Origin: a virus
IMG/VR virus record: IMGVR_UViG_3300027793_000075
Location: 1 to 64,000 of that record
Strand: one strand, 5' to 3'
DNA: 64,000 nt
In this document: one piece after another, positions 2,358 through 28,258 of the stretch
How positions within the stretch are numbered: the stretch's first letter is position 1
How the letters are laid out: every line of letters begins with the position of its first letter
Program-made: the position numbers and the translations under genes
Notes under the pieces: model-generated
The model's database searches: none
What the model saw: only the letters and a program-made list of their open reading frames with translations
Told to the model about the DNA's origin: nothing

Positions 2358-2358
2358 T

Positions 2359-3174
2359 ATGAAAGCATTTGTAAAAACTAATAACGGAACCTTTCCAAAC
2401 GTCAATTTTTATTTGGCATGGGAAGCATTCAATACAATGGGTTATAATGCCACTTGTTTTGAAGAACATGAAATTGACAATTTAGATATCACTAAACAAA
2501 CACCTGTATTTGCTGGAGTGACTGTATTTAGAAAGATTATAGATAAACTGGGAGTTAACTATGCTCCTTATGACTGTTATCCCGAGGATTTAAAACCGTA
2601 TTATAAGCGTAATATTCGCAGAACAACATTGGGTGAGGTTCGCAAAGAATTCAATGATAATTCAACGCCTGTGTTTGTAAAACCAGTATTACCAAAGGAA
2701 TTTAATGGCCGCGTATTAAATAGTTGTTTGGATTTGATATCGATGGCAAAGAAAAGCGATGATTTGGAAGTTTATGTATCCGATCCGATTGATCTTTTGT
2801 CAGAATACCGTGTGTATGTGCTTGATGGCGACATACTTGGGGTAAAGCATTATTATGGCGATTGGTCATTGGCACCAAAAAAAGAGTTTGTTGAAGAAGT
2901 GGTAAGAAGTTACAAAAATGCACCTGCTGCGTATGGTGTTGACATTGGAGTTACTTCCGAATATGATTGTGTGATAGAATCTAATGATGGGTGTAATTTA
3001 GGTAATTATGGATTGGACTCTATCCATTATGGAGAAATGATTGTGTCGCGTTGGACGGAAATTGTAAATGAAAAACGTTCTACATCCAGAAGTAAGTTTG
3101 AATCTGTCAGTGCGTATGCACAATCAATTCGAAACAATAAATTTGACCTAAATACATTTATCAAAAAAGCATAA
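2359..3174 (+). CDS. ATP-grasp enzyme, R2K type (DUF4343-like)
   Basis: 271 residues from the ATG at 2359; an in-frame ATG at 2350 overlaps the previous stop and is the alternative start. Family features are VFVKPV (about residue 108), a VYVSDPIDLLSEYRVYVLDG segment (about 150) and a C-terminal acidic metal/ATP site with ESNDGCNLGNYGLDS. This order matches the R2K ATP-grasp clade, known from phages and bacteria and thought to ligate an amino acid or amine to a peptide or other carboxylate. The substrate is unknown. It closes a unit with the AAA+ and VWA genes, which may be coincidental. Confidence 0.75.
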   Translation: MKAFVKTNNGTFPNVNFYLAWEAFNTMGYNATCFEEHEIDNLDITKQTPVFAGVTVFRKIIDKLGVNYAPYDCYPEDLKPYYKRNIRRTTLGEVRKEFNDNSTPVFVKPVLPKEFNGRVLNSCLDLISMAKKSDDLEVYVSDPIDLLSEYRVYVLDGDILGVKHYYGDWSLAPKKEFVEEVVRSYKNAPAAYGVDIGVTSEYDCVIESNDGCNLGNYGLDSIHYGEMIVSRWTEIVNEKRSTSRSKFESVSAYAQSIRNNKFDLNTFIKKA

Positions 3175-3176
3175 AT

Positions 3177-3410
3177 ATGAAAATTTACGAAGATCAATTG
3201 ACAAAAGTACATACCGCAACGGTGTGTGATATTACACACACTGAAGCATGTGCTTCTTTGAAGTTAAATTTTGGATATGGTAGTAGACACGATGGCATTG
3301 AATTGCATATGGATTTAAATGATGAAACATCTGAAGAAATTCTGCAATTGTTGATTAGTAAATATGGTGCCGAGAAAATCAATAGTCTAAAACGAGATTA
3401 TTTCGAATAA
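3177..3410 (+). CDS. Small hypothetical protein
   Basis: 77 residues, not recognised. It starts 2 bases after the ATP-grasp gene, in the same run. It begins MKIYEDQLTK and has a helical C-terminal half (SEEILQLLISKYG). No membrane segment or cysteine cluster suggests a role. Spacing and the phage-like ATGAAA start support a real gene. Confidence 0.6.
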   Translation: MKIYEDQLTKVHTATVCDITHTEACASLKLNFGYGSRHDGIELHMDLNDETSEEILQLLISKYGAEKINSLKRDYFE

Positions 3411-3420
3411 TGTATCTATT

Positions 3421-4011
3421 ATGAAATTACAATATCAACTTGATAAAGATAGTGCCGAGTGGTGGATGCAATATGAAATTGCACGTTATGGAAATTGTGC
3501 AGCAGAAAGTATTGGATATTGTTATGCTGATGCATTTGAAATGAGTGTATTAACTGCATTGAATCGCAATATAGTTGTTGACCACGAAACTATACAAAAG
3601 TTTTCCAAGATAACCGTCAACAACGTTTTTCCATTGTTTGACGCATCGCATGAATTTTATATTTTTGTAGTTGCCTATGGCAGTGAAATACTTAAATTTT
3701 TGACTGATTACAAAACAAAATCAAACAAATATTTAATTGATATAATTTCCAAATTTGTAACAACCAACTATTATTACTATTTTTGTTCATTTGGTGATTT
3801 GGTATTATTGTTTCCAGACAATACTGTGGATGACAGTGCCCAATTGGAAAAATGGTGTGATGAAGTTATTGCTGCCAATCCAAAAGCAGTTGCCGATTAT
3901 AAAGGCGGCAAAATGGGAGCATTGAACAGTTTGAAAGGTCAAGTAATGAAACTAAGCAAAGGCAAAGCCAAAATTGATATCGTTGGAGATATTCTATTAA
4001 AGAAAATATGA
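3421..4011 (+). CDS. Hypothetical protein
   Basis: 196 residues, not recognised. It has no signal peptide or membrane segment; the middle is rich in Tyr and Phe (a YYYYF run near residue 118) and the C-terminus is Lys/Gly rich. It ends with an ATGA overlap with the next gene, indicating translational coupling. The alternative is any of the many poorly characterised T4-type accessory proteins. Confidence 0.65.
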   Translation: MKLQYQLDKDSAEWWMQYEIARYGNCAAESIGYCYADAFEMSVLTALNRNIVVDHETIQKFSKITVNNVFPLFDASHEFYIFVVAYGSEILKFLTDYKTKSNKYLIDIISKFVTTNYYYYFCSFGDLVLLFPDNTVDDSAQLEKWCDEVIAANPKAVADYKGGKMGALNSLKGQVMKLSKGKAKIDIVGDILLKKI

Positions 4012-6251: not shown

Positions 6252-7760
6252 ATGAATAAGACCAAGAATACTTATAACAAGCCAAACATGACCAATCCTC
6301 TTGTTGCCGGTATGGCTGCCGCAACTAATATTGCATTCACTGCAAATGGTGCAAAGAGCAATGCATCGTCTCTCGACGCTTGCGTTGATTTCTTCGGAAA
6401 GGGTGCCGCAATGCGAGCACAGTCTGAAACCGCAGTAATTGATCTTTTCCGCAAGTCTTTCGCTCAGGATCGACTTGTTGCATTGAAGACTCTTTTCTAT
6501 ACCCGTGACGTTCGTGAAGGTCAGGGTGAACGCAAGACTTTTCGTACCATTATTCGTTGGCTTGCAACCAATTATACCGATATTCTCGTAAAGAATATCA
6601 ACAACATTGCATTTTTCGGTCGTTGGGATGATCTTTACTCCCTTGTTGGTACTCCTGCCGAAAATGCAGCATTTGAAACCATTGCATTCCAGCTTCGCAA
6701 GGATGCAGTTGATGCATCCGAAGGCAAGCCTATTAGCCTTTTGGCTAAGTGGTTGAAGAGCGTTAATACCAGTTCTGCTGAAAGCCGTGCGCTTGGTTAC
6801 AAGACTGCTAAAGCTCTTGGTGTAACTCCAAAGCAGTATCGTCAGGCTATTGCTGCTTTGCGTAAGCATATTGACGTGTTGGAAACCAAGCTGAGTGCTG
6901 GTAAGTTCAACGAAATCGACTACGAAAAGGTTCCTAGCAAGGCTAGTTTGTTGTACCGCAAGGCTTTCAACAAGCGTGATGGTGAACGCTATCGAAGCTA
7001 TTTGAGTGCAGTCGAAAAGGGTGAAGCTAAGATTAATGCGAGTGTTCTTTATCCATATGAAATCATTCGTCCAATTGAACAAGGTCGTGAAAACGATCCT
7101 ACTGCGTTGAAGACGCTTGATTTGCAGTGGAAGAATCAGCCAAATTGGCTCGCTGATAATCCTCATATGGGATTGGTTGTTTGTGATACCTCTGGTAGCA
7201 TGAGTGGTCAGCCTATTTTGGTGAGTGTCAGTCTTGCAATTTATTTTGCAGAACGTAATGTTGGTCCTTTCAAGGATACTTTCATTACTTTCAGTGAGCA
7301 TCCTTCGTTGCAGCGTATCACGGGACAAACCATTGCCGAGAAGGTACGTGGACTCAATCGTAGCGGTTGGTCTATGAATACCAATTTGCAAGCATCCTTT
7401 AATCTTATCTTGAACACCGCAATTCAGAATAAGATTGCTCAAAAGGATATGCCAACTGCTCTTTATATCATCAGTGATATGCAGTTTGATATGGCGTGTG
7501 GTAGCAATACCATGACGAACTTTGAAGTTATCAAGGCTAAGTATCTTGCGGCTGGATACGAAATGCCACGTTTGATCTTCTGGAATGTCAATGCGTCGGG
7601 TGGCGATATGCCTGTTACGGTTAATGACCAAGGTGTATGTTTGGTTAGCGGATGCAGTCCTAGCATCTTGAAGAGTGTATTGTCTGCAAAGACCTTCACT
7701 CCAGCAGATGTTATGTTGGAAACGCTGAACAAGCCTCGTTACGATGTCGTAACTGTCTAA
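6252..7760 (+). CDS. DUF2828 protein (TROVE-like RNA-binding domain plus VWA domain)
   Basis: 502 residues. The N-terminal two thirds carry the family signature VREGQGERKTFRTIIRWLA (about 94-112) and the FFGRWDDLYSLVG segment, helical-repeat features shared by DUF2828 and Ro60/TROVE proteins. The C-terminal domain is a VWA fold with the MIDAS DTSGSMSG at residue 312 onward. Ro-type proteins bind misfolded or small RNAs and help RNA decay or repair; this phage also encodes RNA ligases and a polynucleotide kinase. The gene has its own promoter, long leader and terminator. Lysine is mostly AAG here, unlike AAA-rich neighbours, suggesting high expression or separate origin. Confidence 0.8.
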   Translation: MNKTKNTYNKPNMTNPLVAGMAAATNIAFTANGAKSNASSLDACVDFFGKGAAMRAQSETAVIDLFRKSFAQDRLVALKTLFYTRDVREGQGERKTFRTIIRWLATNYTDILVKNINNIAFFGRWDDLYSLVGTPAENAAFETIAFQLRKDAVDASEGKPISLLAKWLKSVNTSSAESRALGYKTAKALGVTPKQYRQAIAALRKHIDVLETKLSAGKFNEIDYEKVPSKASLLYRKAFNKRDGERYRSYLSAVEKGEAKINASVLYPYEIIRPIEQGRENDPTALKTLDLQWKNQPNWLADNPHMGLVVCDTSGSMSGQPILVSVSLAIYFAERNVGPFKDTFITFSEHPSLQRITGQTIAEKVRGLNRSGWSMNTNLQASFNLILNTAIQNKIAQKDMPTALYIISDMQFDMACGSNTMTNFEVIKAKYLAAGYEMPRLIFWNVNASGGDMPVTVNDQGVCLVSGCSPSILKSVLSAKTFTPADVMLETLNKPRYDVVTV

Positions 7761-11078: not shown

Positions 11079-11263
11079 AATTGAATAGAACCAACGTGGC
11101 CCTCGCCGCAAGTGCGGCACTTGTTGCAGCACCAATTATTGTTGCTGAACATGCCCATCGTGGGCTAAATACATCAAATATAACAAATGAACTAAGTATA
11201 TTTTTCATGAAATGTGCATTTGGATTGTTTTTGCTATGTTTTTGCATGGAGAAGGAACAATGA
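11075..11263 (+). CDS. Small membrane or exported protein
   Basis: 62 residues. There is an N-terminal hydrophobic Ala-rich segment (VALAASAALVAAPIIVA) and a second one near the C-terminus (FFMKCAFGLFLLCFCM). It overlaps both neighbours by ATGA, and the Shine-Dalgarno of the CoA synthase gene lies in its last codons. Function unknown. Confidence 0.55.
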   Translation: MKLNRTNVALAASAALVAAPIIVAEHAHRGLNTSNITNELSIFFMKCAFGLFLLCFCMEKEQ

Positions 11264-12381
11264 AAATCTGTATTTATCCCGGCAGTTTTGACCCTGTAAC
11301 ATACGGTCATATTGATATTATTGATCGTGCATGCAATACATTTGATAAAGTTATCGTTGCTATTGGCATCAATCCAAGCAAGAAATATACTTTTAGTGTA
11401 GAAGAGCGTATTAAATTCATCAAGAAATCTGTAAAACGACCATTCAAAGTGGAAGTTATGAGTTTTACAGGATTGCTTGCCGATTTTGCTTATCAGCAAA
11501 ATGTAAAAACCATTATCAAAGGTGTTCGTAGCAATCAAGATTTTGATTATGAAAGATTGTTACATGAAGTGACTGTTACACAACAGGCAGGTATTGATAC
11601 ACATATACTAATTGCCGATCAAAAATTGAGTCATGTAAGTAGCAGTGCCGCAAAAGAATTGTGCAAGCACCAAGGATTGGTTCACGAATATGTTCCTTAT
11701 TGCGTAAAAGCAGCATTGGAACAAGAAATCAACAATCAATTTATTCTTGGAATCACTGGTTCGATTGGAATGGGCAAGAGTTATGTAACTCAACAATTGA
11801 TTGAACATTTTTCCAAACGAATGCACGTTTTGCATGTAGACTTGGATACAATTGCACATGAATTGTATACACGAACTGAGCCAGTTTATATTGATTTCCA
11901 AAACACTGTCAAAGACGCATTTGGATTGACTGTGGGTGATTCAGTAGAAATGCGTAAGAAACTTGGAAATATTGTTTTCAATAATGAAAATGCGTTAGCT
12001 AAACTAAATAATCTTGCACGGCAACCATTACTTACATTGATGCGTCAAAAAATGTATGGTTTTCAAGGATTGATTTTGTTGAATGGCGCATTGTTGGTCG
12101 AAGCCAATTTTCTTCCATTATGCAACAATAATGTTGTAGTGGTAAATACAGGTATTACTGAGCAAATTGAAAATCTAAAAAATAGAGGATTAACAATTCA
12201 ACAAATTCAGCGTCGTATTAATTGTCAATTGACTAATAATGAAAAGATCAACATCATCAATGATGCAATTTTTAATAATCTCTATGGAACACTAATGCCA
12301 TATAGCAATAGCAAAAATAACAAACCTGAAGTATTTGAGTCATTGACTCGACTTGTTTCTGAAGTAATTCACTTACGATAA
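11260..12381 (+). CDS. coaD-coaE: Bifunctional CoA synthase: phosphopantetheine adenylyltransferase fused to dephospho-CoA kinase
   Basis: 373 residues from ATG 11260, preceded by GGAGAAGGA, one of the few good Shine-Dalgarno sites here. Residues 1-155 are CoaD: PGSFDPVTYGH with the T/HxGH nucleotidyltransferase motif, IKGVRSNQDFDYE, and the HVSSSAAKEL signature. Residues about 160-373 are CoaE: P-loop GITGSIGMGKS (164-174), DLDTIAHEL, and a C-terminal Q-x(5)-E-x(5)-DAIFNN region. Together they convert 4'-phosphopantetheine to CoA. CoaD and CoaE are separate in most bacteria; a fusion in this order is the animal COASY arrangement. Both domains keep their signature residues, so activity is likely. 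Confidence 0.9.
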   Translation: MKICIYPGSFDPVTYGHIDIIDRACNTFDKVIVAIGINPSKKYTFSVEERIKFIKKSVKRPFKVEVMSFTGLLADFAYQQNVKTIIKGVRSNQDFDYERLLHEVTVTQQAGIDTHILIADQKLSHVSSSAAKELCKHQGLVHEYVPYCVKAALEQEINNQFILGITGSIGMGKSYVTQQLIEHFSKRMHVLHVDLDTIAHELYTRTEPVYIDFQNTVKDAFGLTVGDSVEMRKKLGNIVFNNENALAKLNNLARQPLLTLMRQKMYGFQGLILLNGALLVEANFLPLCNNNVVVVNTGITEQIENLKNRGLTIQQIQRRINCQLTNNEKINIINDAIFNNLYGTLMPYSNSKNNKPEVFESLTRLVSEVIHLR

Positions 12382-14369: not shown

Positions 14370-15302
14370 ATGAATGTTAAACAACTCGCGGATGTGGCCG
14401 TTATTGTTGGCCGTTATCAAACGCATACACTTCACTCGGAGCAAATCCGAATGATTGATGAAGTGGTAAAGCGTCACAATCACACAATCATTGTAATCGG
14501 AAACAGTTTGATGCGTGGCACCATTGCTAATCCATTGGATTTTCGTGCCCGTAAAACAATGATTCAGGAAAAGTTTCCAAAAATTGATATTCTCTATATC
14601 AACGATATTCCCAAGGATAATGCTCTTTGGAGCAACAATCTTGACAAGCTAATCAAGGACAATATTCGCGCAAACGAAACGGTTGCCATCTATGGCAGCA
14701 AAGATACATTTATTACCAAGTATAATGGTAAATTTGCTACGTTTGCATTTGAAGCTAGTAGCTTTGTGAGTGCCGACGAGATTCGTCGTCAAGCATCTAC
14801 CAATTATCAGCCAAATGAACAATATCGTGCTGGTATCGTAGCGGCACAAGCCAATAGATTTCCCACTGCATATCAAACTGTTGATATTGCAATCGTGGAT
14901 GATAATGGTCGTTTGTTGATGGGTCGCAAGCCAAATGAAACCAAATGGCGTTTTATTGGAGGATTCAGCGATCCTGCGTCTACTTCACTGGAATCCGATG
15001 CTCGGCGTGAAGCTCAAGAGGAAACCGGTGTTGAAGTTGATGAAATCACTTATTTGGGTTCCATGAAAATCAATGATAGCCGTTATATGTTTGAAGTGGA
15101 TTGTATCAAAACTGCATTTTTCGTAGGAAAATACATTTATGGACGGCCACATGGAAATGATGATATTGCCGAAGTCAAGTGGATTGCTATCAAAGACTTG
15201 AATAAGGATGATATTGGCGAATTTCACCATGTTTTGGTTGACATACTCATGGAGAAATTCGTGAACAACCCGGAATTGTATAAAAAGTACGTAGCAAATT
15301 AA
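14370..15302 (+). CDS. nadM: Bifunctional NMN adenylyltransferase / Nudix hydrolase
   Basis: 310 residues. Residues 1-165 are an NMNAT of the NadM type: VGRYQTHTLH (13-22) replaces the usual GRFQPxHxGH, keeping the two histidines, and SADEIRR (134-140) takes the place of ISSTxIR. Residues about 170-305 are a Nudix domain with REAQEETGV (213-221). The same fusion (NatV) is known in vibriophage KVP40. The NMNAT half makes NAD+ from NMN and ATP; the Nudix half may hydrolyse ADP-ribose or other dinucleotides. It heads a block with a CinA-like fusion and nicotinamide phosphoribosyltransferase. The altered HxGH glycine (to Leu) needs testing. Confidence 0.85.
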   Translation: MNVKQLADVAVIVGRYQTHTLHSEQIRMIDEVVKRHNHTIIVIGNSLMRGTIANPLDFRARKTMIQEKFPKIDILYINDIPKDNALWSNNLDKLIKDNIRANETVAIYGSKDTFITKYNGKFATFAFEASSFVSADEIRRQASTNYQPNEQYRAGIVAAQANRFPTAYQTVDIAIVDDNGRLLMGRKPNETKWRFIGGFSDPASTSLESDARREAQEETGVEVDEITYLGSMKINDSRYMFEVDCIKTAFFVGKYIYGRPHGNDDIAEVKWIAIKDLNKDDIGEFHHVLVDILMEKFVNNPELYKKYVAN

Positions 15303-15319
15303 TTAGACGTTTTAAATTC

Positions 15320-15679
15320 ATGAGTATAATAAACCAAGAAATAATTATTGTTGGTTATAGGGAACTGATTAGGGAATTTGAAAATAAAACCGGGTGGTCA
15401 TCCGCAATTAATGGAGTCTGGAATGCGGATTTCACAAAAACAGTGTTCGATATTGAACTAATTGAAATATTTCAACGAGAACAAGATTGGATTGCTTTTG
15501 TATATCCAGACAGCACTGATATAAGAAAAAAGAACAAAGAGTCTTTACTTAAAGAAGAAAATATCGCAAAATTTAAAAATAATGTTGTTTACAGTCTTTA
15601 TTTAGTAGATATTATTGATTGGATGATATTGAACGGACATTTGCCGGATAAAGGAGAGTTTTTGGTAATGTGTAAATAA
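15320..15679 (+). CDS. Hypothetical protein
   Basis: 119 residues, not recognised. Mixed secondary structure with a Lys/Glu-rich middle and a C-terminal hydrophobic segment (VYSLYLVDIIDWMILNG) that looks buried rather than membrane-spanning. It lies between two NAD-related genes, but its own sequence gives no link to them. Confidence 0.6.
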   Translation: MSIINQEIIIVGYRELIREFENKTGWSSAINGVWNADFTKTVFDIELIEIFQREQDWIAFVYPDSTDIRKKNKESLLKEENIAKFKNNVVYSLYLVDIIDWMILNGHLPDKGEFLVMCK

Positions 15680-15687
15680 AAAAACCA

Positions 15688-15716
15688 TTGACTTTTCTAC
15701 GATCATTGACTACAGT
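15688..15716 (+). promoter_or_regulatory. Sigma70-type promoter
   Basis: TTGACT (15688-15693), 17-base spacer, TACAGT (15711-15716), upstream of the CinA-like/adenylyltransferase gene. Confidence 0.6.
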
Positions 15717-15734
15717 TAGTGCGTAAGATAACTA

Positions 15735-15760
15735 AGATACAGATAAGGTTAAATTACAAA
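15735..15760 (+). promoter_or_regulatory. Leader element shared with the nicotinamide phosphoribosyltransferase gene
   Basis: A 26-base stretch starting AGATACAGAT and ending TTAAATTACAAA directly before the ATG at 15762. It matches 16924-16949 at 24 of 26 positions. Confidence 0.6.
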
Positions 15761-15761
15761 T

Positions 15762-16877
15762 ATGAAAGAAAATTATATTAAAGAATTACAAAATTGTGGC
15801 AAGATGTTTTTTATTGCCGCAACTGGTGGTGGAACAAGTTTTATTGGAGATTTCCTTAAAATTCCCGGTGGCAGCAAGTGTATTGTCGGTGGGTATGTTC
15901 CATACGCTATCGAAGCCACAAATAATTTTATTGGTGGCAAATTAGACAAATATGCAGATGCAAACGCTGCACGTCGTCTTGCAGTGGCAAGCTATGAAAA
16001 TTGTCTAAAAATCAAAAATACAACTACAAACAATTGTGTTGGCGTTGGTATTGCGTGTAGTCTTGTAAAAGACAAAGAACGTGATGGACGCGAACATCAT
16101 ATTAACGTTGCTGTTCATACGTATAATGAAACGTTTGGCATGAGCGTTGTTCTTAAAAACAGCAAACTAAATCGTGCCGAAGAAGAGGAATTTGTCAATG
16201 ATTTGACACTATTTGTGCTCGCCAATAAATATTGCAAGAACATTGATCATGAATGGGAAATTATCCATCAAATGATTTATTTGGATCATGGTGGTGAAGC
16301 AACCACTTTTGGTGAATACAACCGTATGGTTGCATGTGATTTGTACTGCGATGCAATCAATGAAATTGAAAACAATGATACAATTGTTATTTATCCCGGC
16401 AGCTACAATCCATTGCACGATGCACACAAAGAAATTTATCGTTTAGCACACAAAATTACAGGTCTTCCTGTATTTTATGAATTGAGCATTACCAATAGCT
16501 ACAAACCTAGCATGGATTATGTAGATTTGGAAAATCGTTACAAACAGTTTAATAATGTTAATTGGATTAATTCGGTAATCCTAACCAAGGCTCCACGCTT
16601 TGTTGACAAGGTAAATCTGTTTAAAAAATATTTTAATCCAAAGGAAATTATCATTGTTGTGGGTGCTGATACATGGGAACGTGTATATGATGATGCCGCA
16701 CACAAAAATGGAGATATTAAGTTTTTTGAAGACAATAATGTAAATTTCTTGGTTTTTGGCCGCAATACCGAAATTAAAAATCAAGATAGCGTATTGTTCA
16801 TTAAAAATGATTTGGCACTGAATTACAACAATAACATTAGTTCGACTGCCATTAGAAAAGTTCAAGCGAGTGCTTGA
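15762..16877 (+). CDS. CinA-C-like domain fused to a nicotinate/nicotinamide-nucleotide adenylyltransferase-like domain
   Basis: 371 residues. Residues about 14-165 resemble the CinA C-terminal/PncC fold: ATGGGTSFIGD, PGGSKCIVGGYVPYAIEA. PncC deamidates NMN to NaMN. The Ser of GGS and the Tyr of PYA are kept, but the Lys expected a few residues after the Tyr appears to be Thr, so activity is uncertain. Residues about 205-370 are a nucleotidyltransferase: IYPGSYNPLHDAH with an HxxH-type motif, VVGADTWERV, and ISSTAIRKV at the end. It may adenylate NMN or NaMN. It has its own promoter and a leader shared with the next gene. NAD synthetase, needed for a deamidated route, is not in the window. 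Confidence 0.75.
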   Translation: MKENYIKELQNCGKMFFIAATGGGTSFIGDFLKIPGGSKCIVGGYVPYAIEATNNFIGGKLDKYADANAARRLAVASYENCLKIKNTTTNNCVGVGIACSLVKDKERDGREHHINVAVHTYNETFGMSVVLKNSKLNRAEEEEFVNDLTLFVLANKYCKNIDHEWEIIHQMIYLDHGGEATTFGEYNRMVACDLYCDAINEIENNDTIVIYPGSYNPLHDAHKEIYRLAHKITGLPVFYELSITNSYKPSMDYVDLENRYKQFNNVNWINSVILTKAPRFVDKVNLFKKYFNPKEIIIVVGADTWERVYDDAAHKNGDIKFFEDNNVNFLVFGRNTEIKNQDSVLFIKNDLALNYNNNISSTAIRKVQASA

Positions 16878-16901
16878 CTTTTTACCAAGTCAGCCTATGA
16901 T
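16874..16901 (+). promoter_or_regulatory. Sigma70-type promoter; upstream stop codon lies inside the -35
   Basis: TTGACT (16874-16879), 16-base spacer, TATGAT (16896-16901). The TGA stop of the preceding gene (16875-16877) is part of the -35 hexamer. Confidence 0.7.
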
Positions 16902-16923
16902 GGTTGGCGAAGTAAATTAATTG

Positions 16924-16949
16924 AGATACAGATTAGATTAAATTACAAA
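16924..16949 (+). promoter_or_regulatory. Leader element shared with the CinA-like/adenylyltransferase gene
   Basis: Second copy of the 26-base leader (differences from 15735-15760 at the 11th and 14th bases), ending 3 bases before the ATG at 16953. Confidence 0.6.
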
Positions 16950-16952
16950 ACT

Positions 16953-18380
16953 ATGAATACAAACATTACTATTTGCACTACTGAATGGGGTAAGAACATT
17001 TGTCTTACTACCGATAGCTACAAACTCAACCACTGGAATCAATATCCTATTGGCACACAGTACGTTTATGCTTACTTTGAATGCCGCAAGGGTGCAAAAT
17101 TTGCTGATTCTCCTTTTTTCAGCCTTCAGCCTATTATTCTGAATCATCTTGTTGGTGTGGTTGTAACCCGTGAAAAGATTGAAAAGGCTGCTCGCCTTTG
17201 CAAGGCTCATTTCGGAAACGAAACTTATTTTAACCGTGCTGGTTGGGAACACATTCTCAATGTCCACGGCGGAAAACTTCCTATTCGTATTCGTGCCGTT
17301 GAAGAAGGAACGGTTGTTCCGGTCAATAACGTATTGATGACCATTGAAAACACTGATCCACAGTGCTATTGGCTCACCAATTTCCTAGAAACTATTCTAA
17401 CTCACGTTTGGTATGGTACTACCGTTGCTGCTCTTAGCCGTGAAGTTAAGCGAAAGATCAAGAAATTCCTCAAGAAGAATTCTGATGGTGGAATGCTTAA
17501 TTTCTTTCTGCATGACTTTGGTTATCGCGGTGCTTCTTCGTATGAAACTGCCGGAATTGGTGGTGCCGCGCATTTGATCAATTTCCTTGGCACCGATACT
17601 GTCGTCGCTATGGAAACTGCGATGAATTACTATAATGCGAATCTGGATACTCTTGCATTCAGCGTTGCTGCCACTGAACACAGCATTATGACTTCGATGG
17701 GTGCTGCGGGTGAAGATGGTGTTGTTGAACATTTGCTCAACGAATATCCCGATGGCATTCTTTCTTGCGTTGCGGATAGCTACGATATTTACAATTTTGT
17801 TGACAATATTGTAGGAAAGAAGTTCAAGGATCGTATTCTTGCTCGTAATGGTGTATTTGTTGTTCGTCCTGATTCGATTACGCCTACACATCAAACTCCT
17901 GAAGAGGAAATGGTTTGGATTATTGAGTCTTTGTGGAACAATTTCGGTGGCACCGTAAATAGCAAGGGATACAAGGTTATCAATCCAAAGGTTCGTGTTC
18001 TTTGGGGTGACGGTATTGATATTGATGGAATTGAGAAGATTCTGATCGCTGTTGATGCTGCTGGATTTGCGACCGAAAATATTGCTTGTTTCGGTATGGG
18101 TGGTGGACTGTTGCAGAAGGTGAATCGTGACACTCAGCGTTGCGCTTTCAAGTCGTCTGCTCAATGCCGTGATGGCGTTTGGTACGATATTTTCAAGAAT
18201 CCGAAGGATGCCACCAAGGCTTCCAAGAAGGGTAAGCTCAAGTTGACCAAGATTAATGGTGAATTTGTCACGGTCAATGAGAATGAACCCGGCGAGGATT
18301 ATTTGAATGTTGTATTTGAGAATGGTGAGTTGGTCAAGTTTGTTGACTTTGACACCATTCGCAAGAATGCGGCACTCTAA
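16953..18380 (+). CDS. nadV: Nicotinamide phosphoribosyltransferase (NAMPT type)
   Basis: 475 residues, full length for the family. TDSYKLNHWNQYPIG near the N-terminus, YAYFECRKGAKF, FGYRGASSYETAGIGGAAHL (about 190), TEHS with the catalytic His (about 243), RPDS (about 306), GDGIDIDGIE and FGMGGGLLQK are all signatures of NAMPT/NadV. The usual reaction is nicotinamide + PRPP to NMN. A close homologue in phage NARP1 instead joins nicotinamide to ADP-ribose pyrophosphate, and sequence reading cannot separate the two. Lysine is largely AAG, and the gene has its own promoter and conserved leader, suggesting strong expression. Confidence 0.92.
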   Translation: MNTNITICTTEWGKNICLTTDSYKLNHWNQYPIGTQYVYAYFECRKGAKFADSPFFSLQPIILNHLVGVVVTREKIEKAARLCKAHFGNETYFNRAGWEHILNVHGGKLPIRIRAVEEGTVVPVNNVLMTIENTDPQCYWLTNFLETILTHVWYGTTVAALSREVKRKIKKFLKKNSDGGMLNFFLHDFGYRGASSYETAGIGGAAHLINFLGTDTVVAMETAMNYYNANLDTLAFSVAATEHSIMTSMGAAGEDGVVEHLLNEYPDGILSCVADSYDIYNFVDNIVGKKFKDRILARNGVFVVRPDSITPTHQTPEEEMVWIIESLWNNFGGTVNSKGYKVINPKVRVLWGDGIDIDGIEKILIAVDAAGFATENIACFGMGGGLLQKVNRDTQRCAFKSSAQCRDGVWYDIFKNPKDATKASKKGKLKLTKINGEFVTVNENEPGEDYLNVVFENGELVKFVDFDTIRKNAAL

Positions 18381-18396
18381 AAGTTAGTCGAAAGGT

Positions 18397-18424
18397 TTGC
18401 GGTTATCCTTCAAAACCGCAATTT
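18397..18424 (+). terminator. Hairpin after the nicotinamide phosphoribosyltransferase gene
   Basis: TTGCGGTT (18397-18404) pairs with AACCGCAA (18414-18421); only a short T run follows, so termination may be weak. Confidence 0.5.
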
Positions 18425-18443
18425 ACCGTTATAGAAATTGATT

Positions 18444-18719
18444 ATGAAAAACAAATTTAAAACTATTTTTATTCGATTCATACTGAATGTAACTGGATAC
18501 AATATTCCAATTACACTAGCAAATTTTTATCATCCGGGTAGAACAGATACAATCAATTTGATTGATTTTGTATTGAATACATCAGACAATTCACGAATTA
18601 TTCGTGTGGATGCCGATTGTAGCAACGCTAAATGTGTTTGTTGTAAAGACAAAGGTGTGCTAAAGAATGTATATAACCAAATCGGTCATTACAATACGTA
18701 TGACCGTAACAAAAAATAA
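18444..18719 (+). CDS. Hypothetical cysteine-containing protein
   Basis: 91 residues from the ATG at 18444. A basic hydrophobic N-terminus is followed by a C-terminal cluster DCSNAKCVCCKDKG that may bind metal. Not recognised. It ends 4 bases before the RlmN-like gene and could be translated with it. Confidence 0.5.
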   Translation: MKNKFKTIFIRFILNVTGYNIPITLANFYHPGRTDTINLIDFVLNTSDNSRIIRVDADCSNAKCVCCKDKGVLKNVYNQIGHYNTYDRNKK

Positions 18720-18723
18720 TTTT

Positions 18724-19656
18724 ATGTGGAATGATATTAAACGAATTGATTCTAGCGACAAAAATGTTGCTAAATTTGTCTTTAAGAAAGACACTGCTGT
18801 TGCTGAAGCTGTACTTTACAAATATCCTACTTATGAGGATCGTACTGTAATTTGTTGCTCTACCCAAAGTGGTTGTGCAATGGGTTGCCGCTTTTGTGGA
18901 ACAGGTGATTATTTTGTACGCAGTTTGACTGCCGACGAAATTGCACATCAACCTGAATATTTGTTGCAGGAAACCAACATTGATCCGGCAACTATTAAAA
19001 AGCTGCAAATCATGTTCATGTCAATGGGCGAGCCAATGAACAACTTTAATGAGTTGTCCGTTGCTCTGCACAGTCTATATGCAAAATATCCAAATGCACG
19101 TTTGCTTATTAGTACAAGTGCCCCACGTCAATTCAATAAGTTTTCTGAACTTGAAAAATTGAGTGTGGAAATTCCTACTATTGGATTGCAATTTAGTGTT
19201 CATGAAAGCACAGATGAAGAGCGTAAAAAGCTAATTCCTGCGGCAACAATGACACTGCAAGAAATTGCAAATACAGGAAATTCTTGGCACAAGGCAACCG
19301 GTCGCAAGCCCTTCTTCAATTATTGCTTGCACGATAAAAACAATAGTCAAGCGGATGTAAACAGACTATTGGCTAAGTTTGATCCTGCTATTTGGGAAGC
19401 TACTCTTAGTGTTATTTGTGAACGTGATGAACATGTTGCTGCTGCAAATGAACGTCAACGTGAATTGGCTAGTGATTTTGCTGGACTTATGTTGCAAAAA
19501 GGATACAATGTTAGAGTATTTAACCCTGCCGGTCAAGATGACATTGGTGGTGGTTGTGGGCAACTATGGTTTGTTCAAGATTGGATGCGTAATAATCCTA
19601 CTCTAGCTAAACCTTCTGCCGGTAATGGATTACCAAAAGTACATACACCGAATTGA
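18724..19656 (+). CDS. RlmN/Cfr-like radical SAM RNA methyltransferase lacking the N-terminal domain
   Basis: 310 residues from ATG 18724, placed 4 bases after the upstream stop. The CxxxCxxC cluster is GCAMGCRFC (Cys 51, 55, 58), followed by MSMGEPMNNF (GEP motif) and a C-terminal DIGGGCGQLW, which carries the methyl-transfer cysteine of RlmN. RlmN methylates C2 of A2503 in 23S rRNA and A37 in some tRNAs. Bacterial RlmN has about 75 more residues before the cluster (an RNA-binding accessory domain), so target choice may differ. It sits between NAD genes and NADAR without its own promoter. Confidence 0.85.
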   Translation: MWNDIKRIDSSDKNVAKFVFKKDTAVAEAVLYKYPTYEDRTVICCSTQSGCAMGCRFCGTGDYFVRSLTADEIAHQPEYLLQETNIDPATIKKLQIMFMSMGEPMNNFNELSVALHSLYAKYPNARLLISTSAPRQFNKFSELEKLSVEIPTIGLQFSVHESTDEERKKLIPAATMTLQEIANTGNSWHKATGRKPFFNYCLHDKNNSQADVNRLLAKFDPAIWEATLSVICERDEHVAAANERQRELASDFAGLMLQKGYNVRVFNPAGQDDIGGGCGQLWFVQDWMRNNPTLAKPSAGNGLPKVHTPN

Positions 19657-19660
19657 GATT

Positions 19661-19963
19661 ATGAAAGCAAGCGAAGCTCGTCTTTTGACTCAAAAATCAT
19701 ATTCAGCCGGGACAAATACATATATACAAAATGTATATAAAGTCATTGAAGAAGCTGCAAAAAAAGGTAGATCGCAAGTGGCGATTAGATCGCCAGAAGA
19801 AATAATTATTACTTTTGTGATTAATCAACTTAAAAAAGACGGCTATGCTGTTTCTCGAAATCACGGATATGATCAACGTGATGATGAATCATGGGATAAT
19901 TTGGATATTTCATGGGAACATGAAAAGGAATCATCTTGGGACACTGATCCAATGGGAGGATAA
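19661..19963 (+). CDS. Small conserved phage protein, paralogue of the 30325 gene
   Basis: 100 residues. MKASEARLL, IQNVYKVIEEAAKKG and INQLKKDGYAV match the layout of the protein at 30325 (MNAKEAQML, INEIYKKIRAAAENG, IPVLEKQGYKV), and both end with an ISW motif near an acidic tail. The family is common in large phages, function unknown. Confidence 0.65.
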   Translation: MKASEARLLTQKSYSAGTNTYIQNVYKVIEEAAKKGRSQVAIRSPEEIIITFVINQLKKDGYAVSRNHGYDQRDDESWDNLDISWEHEKESSWDTDPMGG

Positions 19964-19969
19964 AAATAT

Positions 19970-20131
19970 ATGAAAAATGAAGAAACTGTAACTATAAGTA
20001 AAAAAGAATATGAATCTTTACTTGAAGATTCTGAAATGTTGCTGGCATTACAAAATGCCGGTGTTGATAATTGGGATGGATATGATTATGCACTGGAACT
20101 TTTGAAAGAGAAAGAGGAAGAGGAAGAGTAA
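19970..20131 (+). CDS. Small acidic conserved phage protein
   Basis: 53 residues. VTISKKEYESLLEDSEMLLAL followed by AGVDNWDGYDYALELL is a layout I recognise from many short phage and bacterial proteins (a GVDNWxGYD signature). It ends in a Glu run. It lies 6 bases after the previous gene and 4 before the NADAR gene. Function unknown. Confidence 0.65.
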   Translation: MKNEETVTISKKEYESLLEDSEMLLALQNAGVDNWDGYDYALELLKEKEEEEE

Positions 20132-20135
20132 AATT

Positions 20136-20660
20136 ATGATTATTATAGAAGATGCAGAAGCATATGATGGTAAGAAAAATTTAGAAACTGATACTCATTT
20201 CTATTTTTGGACAAATTGGTTGAGTAATTGGAAGGTTTGTAAAATTATCGATCCAATTACAAATCTAGAATTCACTAGTACCGAACAAATTTATATGTGG
20301 TATAAAGCTCATTTTTTTAATGATGCTGAAACCCGCAAACAACTGGAAGCAAAGTTGACTCCTAAACAAGCAAAGGATTTGGGTCGAGTTGTAAAGAATT
20401 ATCAAGATGATTTGTGGGAATGTGTTCGGTTTGATTATATGGTATATTCAAACTATCTGAAATATACACAAAATCCCGATCTAAAAGAAAAATTATTGGC
20501 AACCGGCGAAAAAGTGCTTGTGGAAGCAAGTCCATATGACAAAGTTTGGGGAGTTGGACTATTGGCAAATAACCCACTTATTTTAGATGATAAAAACTGG
20601 ACAGGTCGCAACTTGCTTGGTAAAAGTATCATGAAAGTACGCACCATGATTAAAAAGTAA
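20136..20660 (+). CDS. NADAR-domain protein (YbiA-like)
   Basis: 174 residues, nearly all one NADAR domain. Key segments are FWTNWLSNWK, FTSTEQIYMWYKAHFF (Glu50, Lys57) and SPYDKVWGVG with a C-terminal WTGRNLLGK helix. NADAR proteins cleave N-glycosidic bonds in NAD-linked metabolites, and some remove ADP-ribose from guanine in DNA, countering DarT-type toxins. Among NAD-rebuilding genes and with a macro domain 7 kb downstream, an anti-defence role is likely. It is in a tight run from 18444 to 22003. Confidence 0.88.
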   Translation: MIIIEDAEAYDGKKNLETDTHFYFWTNWLSNWKVCKIIDPITNLEFTSTEQIYMWYKAHFFNDAETRKQLEAKLTPKQAKDLGRVVKNYQDDLWECVRFDYMVYSNYLKYTQNPDLKEKLLATGEKVLVEASPYDKVWGVGLLANNPLILDDKNWTGRNLLGKSIMKVRTMIKK

Positions 20661-20663
20661 AAT

Positions 20664-21005
20664 ATGATTATTAAACACATTGATGGAACAGAAGTTGATA
20701 CTGACAAATTGCCAGATATCGACGCGCAAATTTTTGAAAAAATTGAAGAGTTGCGAGTTTTGTGTGAAACTTCCAATAGAATTTGTTTGTTGTTGGTTGA
20801 TACCAAAGGACAAAGTAAACTAACTACGTTTTGGAATCTAAAAAGTGGGCCTATCGTCAATGATGCTACGGTACAAAAATCATTTGCTAAATTAGCTCAT
20901 GCAGCACATTCATATTTTATGGGATGTAGCCAAGGAAATCTTGGAGTATTTCCTACTAGTGCAATCGATCCTAATAAATTGAATATTAATAATAACGATG
21001 AATGA
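20664..21005 (+). CDS. Hypothetical protein
   Basis: 113 residues, not recognised. MIIKHIDGTEVD at the start, a hydrophobic strand ICLLLVDTKG in the middle and an AKLAHAAHSYFMGCS helix. It overlaps the Pth2 gene by 8 bases. Confidence 0.6.
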   Translation: MIIKHIDGTEVDTDKLPDIDAQIFEKIEELRVLCETSNRICLLLVDTKGQSKLTTFWNLKSGPIVNDATVQKSFAKLAHAAHSYFMGCSQGNLGVFPTSAIDPNKLNINNNDE

Positions 21006-21369
21006 TACTATAAAACAAGTTATTGTGATGCGTAATGATTTGGGCATGCGTAAAGGCAAAATGATTGCACAAGGTAGTCACGCAAGTATTAGTTTTTTGA
21101 CCAGAAAACTTCAATCTGGTCGAAAAATGACTGATGTTGAACAGCAATGGGTAAATGATAGATTTACTAAAATTTGCGTTCGTGTAGATAGCGAACAAGA
21201 ATTAATCGATATTCATAACAAAGCATTTTTAAATGGCGTTGAAAGTCATTTAATCACTGATGCAGGATTAACTGAATTCAATGGAGTGCCTACAAAAACT
21301 TGTCTGGCACTTGGTCCAGACTATGCTAGTAAAATTGATGCTATTACAGGACATTTGAAACTATTGTGA
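20998..21369 (+). CDS. pth2: Peptidyl-tRNA hydrolase 2 family protein
   Basis: 123 residues, the usual size of Pth2. KQVIVMRNDLGMRKGKMIAQ followed by GSHAS is the family signature, with the catalytic region around RKGKMIAQGSH; the C-terminal part has AGLTEFNGVPTKTCLALGP. Pth2 releases peptides from peptidyl-tRNA. It is typical of archaea and eukaryotes and sporadic in bacteria and phages. A second, more divergent Pth2-like protein is encoded at 25843. Confidence 0.88.
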   Translation: MNDTIKQVIVMRNDLGMRKGKMIAQGSHASISFLTRKLQSGRKMTDVEQQWVNDRFTKICVRVDSEQELIDIHNKAFLNGVESHLITDAGLTEFNGVPTKTCLALGPDYASKIDAITGHLKLL

Positions 21370-21584
21370 ATGTAATATATACAATTATTAATCAATACGG
21401 TCATTTAGTAATTAATTATACAGACTATCATGATGTAATTGTATATATACGAAGAAATTCAATCGACAATGCTCTAATTTACGAATCGAAATTAAATTCA
21501 ATAAACAATATTGATATATCACATAATGTATATCAACATGCTTATAATGATTTTAAACATTTTAATGATAGAAACTATGATTAG
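21366..21584 (+). CDS. Small hypothetical protein
   Basis: 72 residues, not recognised, rich in Tyr, Ile and Asn. It is coupled to Pth2 by ATGA and overlaps the next start by 8 bases. Confidence 0.5.
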   Translation: MNVIYTIINQYGHLVINYTDYHDVIVYIRRNSIDNALIYESKLNSINNIDISHNVYQHAYNDFKHFNDRNYD

Positions 21585-21774
21585 TGTTGTAATTGTCAAT
21601 TTTCACAGCGACGATGTTGCGCTGTTAAAAAACATGAAATACAATTTAGAAAAAGCTGGCTTTTCTCTAACGGAGAGCTATACTAGTGGTGTTGTAAGTG
21701 AAAAACAGAGAGATGCAGGTATTCTCGTTGACACAATAGCACTGGTATATAATAAAACACATGAAATCAAATGA
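21577..21774 (+). CDS. Small hypothetical protein
   Basis: 65 residues beginning MISVVIVNFHSDDVALL. The start is set at 21577 because upstream in-frame ATGs lie deep in the previous gene. A strand-helix pattern, then DAGILVDTIALVY. Not recognised. Confidence 0.5.
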   Translation: MISVVIVNFHSDDVALLKNMKYNLEKAGFSLTESYTSGVVSEKQRDAGILVDTIALVYNKTHEIK

Positions 21775-22003
21775 ATTTGTCAATCTAACCGAAGAACAAT
21801 ATAAAAGATTGTTGATTGATGCAATTTGTAAATATCAGCCGGCCAATTCTCAGTCGGAGTGTGTTGAATTGGAAAAACGTGGACTTGCAAAATTTAATGG
21901 CAATCAATGGAATGAAAGCTGGGCATGGAAATCCGATGCGTTACGTAAAATGCCAATTATTGAGCTAGAAACTATCTACAAACAATATCTCACCAATCTT
22001 TAA
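21761..22003 (+). CDS. Small hypothetical protein
   Basis: 80 residues, helical, with NLTEEQYKRLLIDAICKY at the start. Not recognised. It ends the run of overlapping genes before the PRPP synthetase homologue. Confidence 0.55.
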   Translation: MKSNEFVNLTEEQYKRLLIDAICKYQPANSQSECVELEKRGLAKFNGNQWNESWAWKSDALRKMPIIELETIYKQYLTNL

Positions 22004-22028
22004 ATACTAATAGAAAATAAGCTACAAC

Positions 22029-22994
22029 ATGAAAAACCTTAAACTTTTTAGTGGCACCAGCAATGTTCCTCTTGCAGAAAAGATTGCAGAGAATCTTTTT
22101 ACCAAGCTAGGTGATATTTATCATCATCGGTTTCCTAGCGGCGAAACTTATTGTCAGTTCAAGGAAAACATTCGTGGAAGTGATGTTTTTCTTATTCAGG
22201 GAATCACCAATCCTGCAAATGAGAATTTGATGGAATTGCTTGTTATGGCTGATGCTGCTCGACGTGCAAGTGCCGAGCGTATTACTGCCGTAATTCCTTA
22301 TTTTGGATATGCCCGTCAAGATCGCAAAGACAAGTCGCGTGTACCAATTAGTGCCAAGTTGGTTCTTGATATTATTGAAACTGCCGGTATTGATCGTGTG
22401 GTAACTATGGATTTGCACAGTCCTCAAGTTGGCGGATTTACCAATTTGCCATTTGATCATTTGACTTTTGAACCTGTACTTGTCAATTATATTCGCAGCA
22501 AGTATCACAGTCTTGCTCTGCGCGACAGTGTTGTTTTGATGGCACCTGACGTTGGTGCTGTTAAGCGAATTGAAAAGTATGCTAGTATTCTAAAGAGTGA
22601 TTTTGGATTTATTAGCAAAAAGCGTATTGGCGACGACAAGGTTGAATTGCAGAGTATTGTTGGTGATGTCAAAGACAAGCATGTAATTATTATTGATGAT
22701 TTGACTGAAAGTTGCGGCACTCTCATTCAAGCTGCCGATGCGTGTAAAAACAATGGTGCCAATCATGTAACTACCGTTGTCACACACGGTTGCATTACTG
22801 AAACAGGTGTAAATCGATTGGAAAATGCACTTGTAAACAAGAATATTGATGAATTTGTATATAGCAATACCGCAAATATTGCCAAGCATACAAAGTTGGC
22901 GGATCGTCTTGTTGAATTGGATGTTAGCATGGTATTTGCCAAGGCAATCAACAACATTCACAACAATGAAAGCGTAAGTGAATTGTTTATTTGA
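22029..22994 (+). CDS. prs: Ribose-phosphate pyrophosphokinase homologue (PRPP synthetase-like)
   Basis: 321 residues, normal length. RFPSGETYCQF, the IPYFGYARQDRK segment with SRVPISAK (about 95-118) and VTMDLHSPQV are standard. The PRPP-binding loop reads DDLTESCGTL (about 224) where cellular enzymes have DDMIDTAGTL, and the flexible loop KKRIGDD differs from the usual KRR. The usual reaction is ribose-5-phosphate + ATP to PRPP, the substrate for NMN synthesis. In NARP1 a Prs homologue (Adps) pyrophosphorylates ADP-ribose; the altered loops fit changed specificity but do not prove it. Lysine is mostly AAG, as in the nicotinamide phosphoribosyltransferase gene. Confidence 0.88.
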   Translation: MKNLKLFSGTSNVPLAEKIAENLFTKLGDIYHHRFPSGETYCQFKENIRGSDVFLIQGITNPANENLMELLVMADAARRASAERITAVIPYFGYARQDRKDKSRVPISAKLVLDIIETAGIDRVVTMDLHSPQVGGFTNLPFDHLTFEPVLVNYIRSKYHSLALRDSVVLMAPDVGAVKRIEKYASILKSDFGFISKKRIGDDKVELQSIVGDVKDKHVIIIDDLTESCGTLIQAADACKNNGANHVTTVVTHGCITETGVNRLENALVNKNIDEFVYSNTANIAKHTKLADRLVELDVSMVFAKAINNIHNNESVSELFI

Positions 22995-23205: not shown

Positions 23206-23631
23206 ATGGTTGAATTCGTTGATAGTATTCCTGAGAATGAGAGTGTTGGAGTGTGTGTAATTTTGATTGACAAGTGGACAAATAAGATTTATTTGGCCGA
23301 AAGAAAGGGTAGTTATGAAACTCATAAGTTTTGTTGCCCCGGTGGAATGGTTGAATCAAATGAAGATTATATCAGTGCTTTGATTCGTGAAGTAAAGGAA
23401 GAAACTGGTCTTCAACTCAAGTTTCCCAATATTCAATTTGTAGCTACTGCAAAGCATCAGGGTGCTAAAAGCAATTATACGATGTGGTTCAAGTATTATC
23501 TTGACAGTCGAGATATTCCTAGTAATTTGGAACCTGAAAAGCATGGACCTTGGATGCTTTATAGTCGTCACGAAGCATTGAAGTTGCCGTTGATGCTTAG
23601 TACCCGCGAAACGTTTGGTAATTATCTATAA
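23206..23631 (+). CDS. Nudix hydrolase
   Basis: 141 residues. The Nudix box is complete: GGMVESNEDY followed by SALIREVKEETGL (about 46-68), matching G-x5-E-x7-REUxEExGU. It hydrolyses nucleoside diphosphates linked to another group; the substrate cannot be read. Candidates are ADP-ribose, NADH, CoA or capped RNA ends, given the surrounding cofactor genes. It is the second Nudix domain in the window. Confidence 0.88.
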   Translation: MVEFVDSIPENESVGVCVILIDKWTNKIYLAERKGSYETHKFCCPGGMVESNEDYISALIREVKEETGLQLKFPNIQFVATAKHQGAKSNYTMWFKYYLDSRDIPSNLEPEKHGPWMLYSRHEALKLPLMLSTRETFGNYL

Positions 23632-25842: not shown

Positions 25843-26280
25843 ATGAAAGAAAATTATATCTTATATATACTTATTCGTAATGATATGCCATCTTTAAATG
25901 CAGGTAAGGCGATGGCACAAGCAAGTCATGCCAGCAATGCATTTATCAAAAAATACGGAACCACCAAACCAGCAAAAGATTGGGCCGGTGAGACTTCTCA
26001 AGGTTTCGGCACCGTAATAGTGTTGAGCGCAAATAAAAAGCAATTGGATGCTGCAATTCACAACAGCGAAGTGGCAGACATTGTAATCGATCCAACATAT
26101 CCATATATTGTTAACAATGAAATAGCGGAGCTTATTGATCCGGCTACGCATACGGTGTCTCCTATTGTTAAAAATGATGGTAGCGTTGTATTGCATCGTA
26201 AAGAGACCACTTGTGGTTATGTTTTTGGAACCAAAGAACAGTGTAAATCTGTAATTGGTAATTTACCACTACATCCCTAG
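25843..26280 (+). CDS. Pth2-like protein, divergent
   Basis: 145 residues. ILIRNDMPSLNAGKAMAQASHAS resembles the Pth2 signature (RND-x5-GKxxAQxxHAS) and the protein at 20998, but the C-terminal half differs and contains TTCGYVFGTKEQC. It may be a second peptidyl-tRNA hydrolase or a relative with another RNA substrate. The key Lys, Gln and His positions appear kept. Confidence 0.7.
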   Translation: MKENYILYILIRNDMPSLNAGKAMAQASHASNAFIKKYGTTKPAKDWAGETSQGFGTVIVLSANKKQLDAAIHNSEVADIVIDPTYPYIVNNEIAELIDPATHTVSPIVKNDGSVVLHRKETTCGYVFGTKEQCKSVIGNLPLHP

Positions 26281-27778: not shown

Positions 27779-28258
27779 ATGATTGAAATAATTGATAAAA
27801 ACATTTTTGAACATAATGCTCAATGCATTATCCATCAAGCAAATTGTCATTGCCGCATGGCAAGTGGAGTTGCAGCACAAATACGTCGCTTCTATCCAGA
27901 AGCTGTGGCGGCAGACAATGCAACAACAGTTGGCGATGCTAATAAGTTAGGTACGTTTACTAGTGCAACTGGTAAAGACGGCAAGATTATATACAACTTG
28001 TATGGACAATACAATTTTGGTAATCAAATTCGGCAAACACATTACGAAGGTTTTTACAGAGCAATGGATGCGATACATAAAGATGTTGTAGCCAGAAACC
28101 TAACTACTGCAAGTGTGCCATATAATATTGGTTGCGGTCTGGCAGGCGGTAGTTGGAAGATTGTATCTGCAATTATCGATGAAATTTGGCATAATAGTGC
28201 TGTAGAATTGACAATATGCAGATATGCTCCTGAAAATGCGCGTGATAGAGGATATTAA
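27779..28258 (+). CDS. Macro-domain protein (ADP-ribose binding or hydrolysing)
   Basis: 159 residues, a single macro domain. CIIHQANCHCRMASGVAAQI (about 16-35) is the ADP-ribose-binding loop with the Asn-x-x-x-x-M-x-x-G pattern, and VPYNIGCGLAGGSWKIV (about 118-134) is the second loop. The pattern is closest to ALC1/Poa1p-like macro domains that act on ADP-ribose-1''-phosphate or remove ADP-ribose from proteins. Together with NADAR it suggests reversal of ADP-ribosylation during infection. Confidence 0.88.
   Translation: MIEIIDKNIFEHNAQCIIHQANCHCRMASGVAAQIRRFYPEAVAADNATTVGDANKLGTFTSATGKDGKIIYNLYGQYNFGNQIRQTHYEGFYRAMDAIHKDVVARNLTTASVPYNIGCGLAGGSWKIVSAIIDEIWHNSAVELTICRYAPENARDRGY

Follow-up and report, generated by a model that had tools for sequence, protein, structure and literature searches.

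We analysed the first 64,000 bases (bases 1-64000; the window) of the 85,566-base virus record IMGVR_UViG_3300027793_000075, which encodes a contractile-tailed phage with genes for a tail sheath, terminase, portal, rIIA/rIIB and two RNA ligases, and we concentrated on a group of genes that may allow this phage to rebuild nicotinamide adenine dinucleotide (NAD+). A preliminary description had placed four such genes within 9 kb, coding for an NMNAT-like/Nudix protein, a CinA-like/adenylyltransferase fusion, a nicotinamide phosphoribosyltransferase (Nampt) and a homologue of phosphoribosyl pyrophosphate (PRPP) synthetase (Prs). Searches with Pfam and NCBIfam models bore this out: all four are open reading frames on the + strand at the coordinates listed here, although the CinA part of the fusion scored only 0.025 with Pfam, below the cut-off, and was later supported by a profile match and by its predicted fold. 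The genes and the motifs within them are as follows.

14370-15302, + strand: protein of 310 amino acids with an NMNAT-like domain and a Nudix hydrolase domain (NadM-Nudix type); Nudix PF00293, 1.6e-13
14433-14444, + strand: HSEQ at residues 22-25, a degenerate form of the HxxH motif in the NMNAT-like domain
14958-15032, + strand: intact Nudix box (GGF...RREAQEETG) of the NMNAT-Nudix protein
15762-16877, + strand: CinA-like/adenylyltransferase fusion of 371 amino acids, candidate NMNAT of the set; PF01467, 7.6e-9
15762-16241, + strand: residues 1-160 of the fusion, its CinA/PncC-like half, without conservation of the deamidase Ser and Lys
16416-16427, + strand: intact HxxH motif, HDAH, residues 219-222, in the nucleotidyltransferase half of the fusion
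16836-16856, + strand: ISSTAIR motif, residues 359-365 of the fusion
16953-18380, + strand: Nampt (NadV) of 475 amino acids; PF18127, 1e-33; PRK09198, 9e-161, above the cut-off
18099-18131, + strand: GGGLLQKVNRD, of Nampt type, where Namat has its selectivity-clamp helix (comparison with PMC12774641)
22029-22994, + strand: class I PRPP synthetase (Prs) of 321 amino acids; TIGR01251, 3e-100, above the cut-off

A megablast search with the region gave no match. That these are chance or decaying reading frames was ruled out by the family scores and by their conservation, the ratio of non-synonymous to synonymous substitution rates (dN/dS) being 0.02-0.19 in near relatives over the segments compared.

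The NMNAT-Nudix protein had been taken as the NMNAT of the set. We found, however, that its adenylyltransferase motif is broken: the HxGH that is intact in bifunctional NadM-Nudix enzymes reads HSEQ in the window phage and HAEQ in its closest relatives, L002 and L003, and the SxTxxR position is occupied by SADEIR, SADELR and GADELR across the three phages. The NCBIfam models for bifunctional NMNAT/Nudix proteins matched 14370-15302 at 1.7e-13, far under their cut-offs. A scan of IMG/VR for this protein returned 66 related loci, including L002 and L003, and in the alignment the final His of the motif is present in all 60 of the other viral homologues that cover the site, several of which are near-copies. 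The nearest intact homologues (53-58% identical) have HDAH or HEAH together with SGTEVR; they occur with Nampt, often with Prs, and without the fusion. In work on a cyanobacterial NMNAT, the enzyme that served as control had both motif histidines mutated (H16A/H19A; PMC13036487). The Nudix catalytic box RExxEE is present as REAQEE, with the first Glu of the GX5E part off its usual place. With its catalytic motif lost, the protein would now work mainly as a Nudix hydrolase, which leaves the fusion as the better NMNAT candidate; if this is true, the presence of a NadM-Nudix gene is by itself no proof of NMNAT activity. A mirror case was seen in the huge phage LR756502 (L140, 3942-4880), where an NMNAT-Nudix protein has intact HDAH and SGTEVR motifs but a degraded Nudix box, RKFMDE.

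In the fusion the corresponding motifs are intact, HxxH being HDAH in the window phage and HEGH in L002 and L003. Searches with the single sequence found no match in PHROG or INPHARED, and EsaG, the top match of such a search in the PDB, was judged spurious. A profile built from the fusion family matched Thermus CinA with its first half (4e-4) and human NMNAT1 (1e-5, two weak stretches summed) and a NadD (9e-4) with its second half. An AlphaFold model computed from a 58-sequence input had a predicted local distance difference test score (pLDDT) of 88 and a predicted template modelling score (pTM) of 0.86, and Foldseek matched it to CinA and NadD structures; a run from three sequences reached a pLDDT of only 50 and was discarded. 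Escherichia coli PncC did not match the family profile, so the kinship with CinA rests on the Thermus CinA profile match and the fold.

The first half of the fusion resembles the PncC/CinA NMN (nicotinamide mononucleotide) deamidases (PF02464) in its CinA fold and in retaining the Gly, Ser, Tyr and Arg positions. It departs from them in that the family does not conserve the catalytic Ser and Lys, whose sites are described in PMC3855486, and in that its partner is an adenylyltransferase rather than a COG1058 domain. Where PncC has AESCTGG and YxNxxK, the residue before the Gly run is, by register, an invariant Thr or a residue other than Ser, and none of the 58 family members has a Lys at Tyr+5, the Tyr itself being kept. 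With neither of these deamidase residues conserved, NMN deamidation by the fusion is unlikely. The second half shares with NadD/NMNAT, the HxGH adenylyltransferases, the fold, HxxH and ISSTxIR, yet its sequence is distant from theirs (12-17% in Foldseek) and it is attached to the CinA-like half. It can be seen that the window fusion carries the signature of the family, TGGG-x10-PG[AG]S-x7-VPY with HxxH and SSxxxR, all within a single chain some 350-410 amino acids long. The same motif pattern occurs in at least 118 bacterial genome stretches; among the matches listed, 102 complete proteins were extracted, of which 77 are two-domain fusions (those of phages L002 and L003 included) and the remainder mostly a CinA-like domain alone. 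On the evidence of profiles and modelled structure, we conclude that the fusion is a member of a widespread bacterial family that joins a CinA/PncC-like fold to a NadD/NMNAT fold. We found no published function for this family in the open-licence PubMed Central literature.

Among viruses the fusion is very rare. One scan of IMG/VR with the motif pattern and two with peptide patterns found only L002, L003 and G003, although these scans require short exact matches and may miss distant members. L002 and L003 are near relatives of the window phage, and both have the fusion together with HxxQ. G003 (L211) is a more distant phage whose fusion is 38% identical in the alignment (35% by BLASTP) and stands in the gene row fusion-Nudix-Nudix-Nampt; the sole match there to the NMNAT-Nudix profile is a Nudix protein of 144 amino acids without an NMNAT domain. 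The four Nampt-associated phage fusions form a single clade among the bacterial members (100/100). The family profile was run against the records of 17 relatives without the fusion and found no full-length fusion in any of them. With the Pfam nucleotidyltransferase model, only the fusion was detected in the four fusion-bearing records, plus CoaD in two of them, and in the six fusion-less records tested the NMNAT-Nudix protein was found weakly (17-24 bits). NAD synthetase was not found in the four fusion-bearing records, which may be incomplete; this favours NMN, which leads to NAD+ directly, over nicotinic acid mononucleotide (NaMN) as the predicted substrate of the fusion. Two further observations were made on these relatives: upstream of the L211 fusion there are apparent Macro-like and NADAR-like genes (by eye), and a fusion-less relative with Nampt, NMNAT-Nudix and Prs, G007, codes for a NAD synthetase (L156 record, 147746-148390; PF02540, 1.8e-50).

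Two phage pathways, NARP1 (a Prs-like Adps plus a Nampt-like Namat) and NARP2 (Nampt plus NMNAT), reportedly restore NAD+ after its depletion by defence systems. It had been proposed that the window phage might encode both routes. The parts for NARP2 are there, in the form of the Nampt and the NMNAT candidates, but motifs and trees spoke against NARP1. The window Nampt matched 32 Nampt structures and keeps the catalytic His, so that as far as its sequence goes it should make NMN from nicotinamide and PRPP. As references for NARP1 we took eight neighbouring Prs-like/Nampt-like pairs from phage records, presumed to be Adps and Namat on the basis of the published Namat motif, with its two adenine-stacking aromatic residues (PMC12774641). 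The clamp reads GS[YF] in seven of the eight and GAY in the Listeria one; in the window GGGLLQKVNRD, Gly and Lys take the places of both aromatics, which is the Nampt pattern. Likewise, the window Prs has the class I motifs DLHSPQ, KKR, DDLTESCGT and a C-terminal SVSELF, whereas VDPHSD and DDICDGGxTF are found in most of the Adps-type references and the class I tail in none of them (0/8). The phylogenetic check that had been suggested gave the same answer: in FastTree trees (Nampt/Namat, 63 sequences; Prs/Adps, 26 sequences), the eight Namat and the eight Adps references each formed one clade with support 1.0, from which the window proteins were excluded. We conclude that by motif and tree the window Nampt and Prs are canonical, which supports NARP2-type salvage of nicotinamide via NMN together with a source of PRPP. 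Prs was present in 10 of 21 related records and is thus a repeated companion of the set.

Some variation in these two genes was noted among the relatives. At the same place L003 has a different Nampt (2283-3650), 45% identical to that of the window, whose clamp, GSYLVRKLNRD, is odd in having one aromatic residue as in Namat and one Lys as in Nampt. The Nampt of L154 has likewise been replaced in comparison with that of its sister L153: it is 46% identical to the window Nampt, and the L153 protein 79%. The Prs gene of L002 (16931-17908) seems chimeric, with about 52-70% DNA identity to the window gene in its first 300 bases and 85-97% thereafter; its ATP-site stretch is FYYGRSDR in place of FGYARQDR.

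Taken together, we think it rather probable that the window encodes a NARP2-like salvage set with its own PRPP supply, in which the NadM-type NMNAT has been displaced by a fusion of bacterial origin. That the fusion probably displaced NadM as the NMNAT is suggested by the HxxQ of the NMNAT-Nudix protein, the intact motifs of the fusion and the G003 Nudix protein that lacks an NMNAT domain. In comparison with NadV plus NadM salvage (NARP2, of the KVP40 NadV/NatV type), the set has the same Nampt start, the same route from nicotinamide through NMN to NAD+ and an NMNAT-Nudix gene alongside; it differs in the lost NadM-type motif, in the CinA-like/NMNAT fusion and in the added canonical Prs and NADAR genes. 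The phage NMNATs named in PMC9503650 are NadM and NadR only. Nampt-based salvage itself is well known, and what is new here is a probable exchange of enzymes that brings in a bacterial family apparently not yet characterised. If the reading is true, an enzyme from a widespread bacterial family took over as the NMNAT of a salvage set, giving that family a testable function as an NMNAT with a CinA-like partner domain.

The preliminary description did not include a NADAR gene inside the interval, nor three further genes nearby.

20136-20660, + strand: NADAR-domain protein, possible ADP-ribosyl N-glycosidase; PF08719, 2.8e-42; kept in L002 and L003 (75% identical)
23206-23631, + strand: second Nudix hydrolase, stand-alone, adjoining prs, of uncertain role in the set; PF00293, 4.6e-13; kept in L003 (70% identical)
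27779-28258: Macro-domain protein; PF01661, 2.5e-5
11212-12381: CoaD-CoaE fusion (final two steps of coenzyme A synthesis in one protein); kept in L002 (85% identical)

From the gene identities, motif states, phylogenetic placements, predicted folds and signs of purifying selection we infer the following activities. Some NadM-Nudix proteins act on ADP-ribose, yielding AMP and ribose-5-phosphate, and because of this known activity the same step is proposed for the Nudix domain of the NMNAT-Nudix protein. Prs would then make PRPP from ribose-5-phosphate and ATP, Nampt would join PRPP to nicotinamide to give NMN, and the fusion would convert NMN and ATP to NAD+. The NADAR protein may feed this sequence by releasing ADP-ribose from adducts (PMC11543638). 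If the Nudix domain does cleave ADP-ribose, both products of an NADase, ADP-ribose and nicotinamide, could be recycled to NAD+ without Adps or Namat. The inputs would possibly be those of NARP1, which also pairs a Prs homologue with a Nampt homologue, but with canonical enzymes any reuse of ADP-ribose would have to pass through ribose-5-phosphate and PRPP. We put forward such a complete repair loop, from NADAR and Nudix through Prs and Nampt to a CinA-like/NMNAT protein in the place of NadM, only tentatively; if true, it suggests that ADP-ribose can be reused without NARP1. Use of the set against NAD+-depleting defence is plausible given the neighbouring NADAR, Macro and Nudix genes, since such neighbourhoods have been tied to conflicts over NAD+ and ADP-ribose (NAD+-ADPr; PMC9503650).

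A potential explanation that keeps both routes is that, alongside NARP2, ADP-ribose is the substrate of the Prs homologue, working as Adps, and ADP-ribose pyrophosphate (ADPR-PP) that of the Nampt homologue, working as Namat. The two genes do lie within 6 kb of each other, and such genes are adjacent pairs in the presumed NARP1 phages; the absence of the clamp aromatics and of VDPHSD and DDICDGGxTF, the class I C-terminus of the Prs and the position of both proteins outside the Adps and Namat clades make this very improbable. PRPP is a general input to nucleotide synthesis, and Prs, CoaD-CoaE, Nampt and the other metabolic genes nearby might simply enlarge the supply of cofactors and nucleotides for replication, unrelated to defence or to ADP-ribose recycling. 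We regard such a general supply as possible but doubtful, because this stretch also contains NADAR, Macro and two Nudix genes, which suggest the handling of ADP-ribose (compare PMC9503650).

It is also conceivable that the set is an ordinary NARP2 in which the NMNAT-Nudix protein is still a working NMNAT and the fusion has another substrate, such as NaMN or a different mononucleotide. Purifying selection on the degenerate NMNAT domain (dN/dS 0.10-0.16) means that it keeps some role and is probably no mere relic; in Foldseek, the second half of the fusion comes out close to NadD, which acts on NaMN; and a diverged fusion occurs without a detectable Nampt in the huge phage LR745208. We nevertheless consider this unlikely, since both nucleotidyltransferase motifs of the NMNAT-Nudix protein are changed, including a His otherwise invariant in the viral homologues, in G003 the partner Nudix protein lacks an NMNAT domain and the Pfam model detects no nucleotidyltransferase other than the fusion, and no NAD synthetase to finish an NaMN route was found in the four phage records. 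Besides the selection on the NMNAT domain and the LR745208 fusion, several points weigh against displacement of NadM by the fusion and against the loop. An upstream His (THTLH) in the degenerate domain might compensate for the lost one; the fusion could favour NaMN, with the host NadE completing NAD+; the G003 Nudix protein may never have had an NMNAT domain; and Prs may serve nucleotide synthesis only. The three HxxQ phages are a single lineage and the four fusions one clade, so that at most two events lie behind the association of the fusion with loss of the NMNAT motif, and the records are incomplete.

Other genes of the window were noted in passing. Between the Nampt and NADAR genes lies one for an RlmN/Cfr-like radical SAM protein (18667-19656; TIGR00048, 8e-30, below the cut-off), and the phage has two genes for PTH2-type peptidyl-tRNA hydrolases (20998-21369 and 25843-26280). 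At 6252-7760 there is a large protein of PHROG 850 (RNA-binding protein), matched at 2.7e-143.

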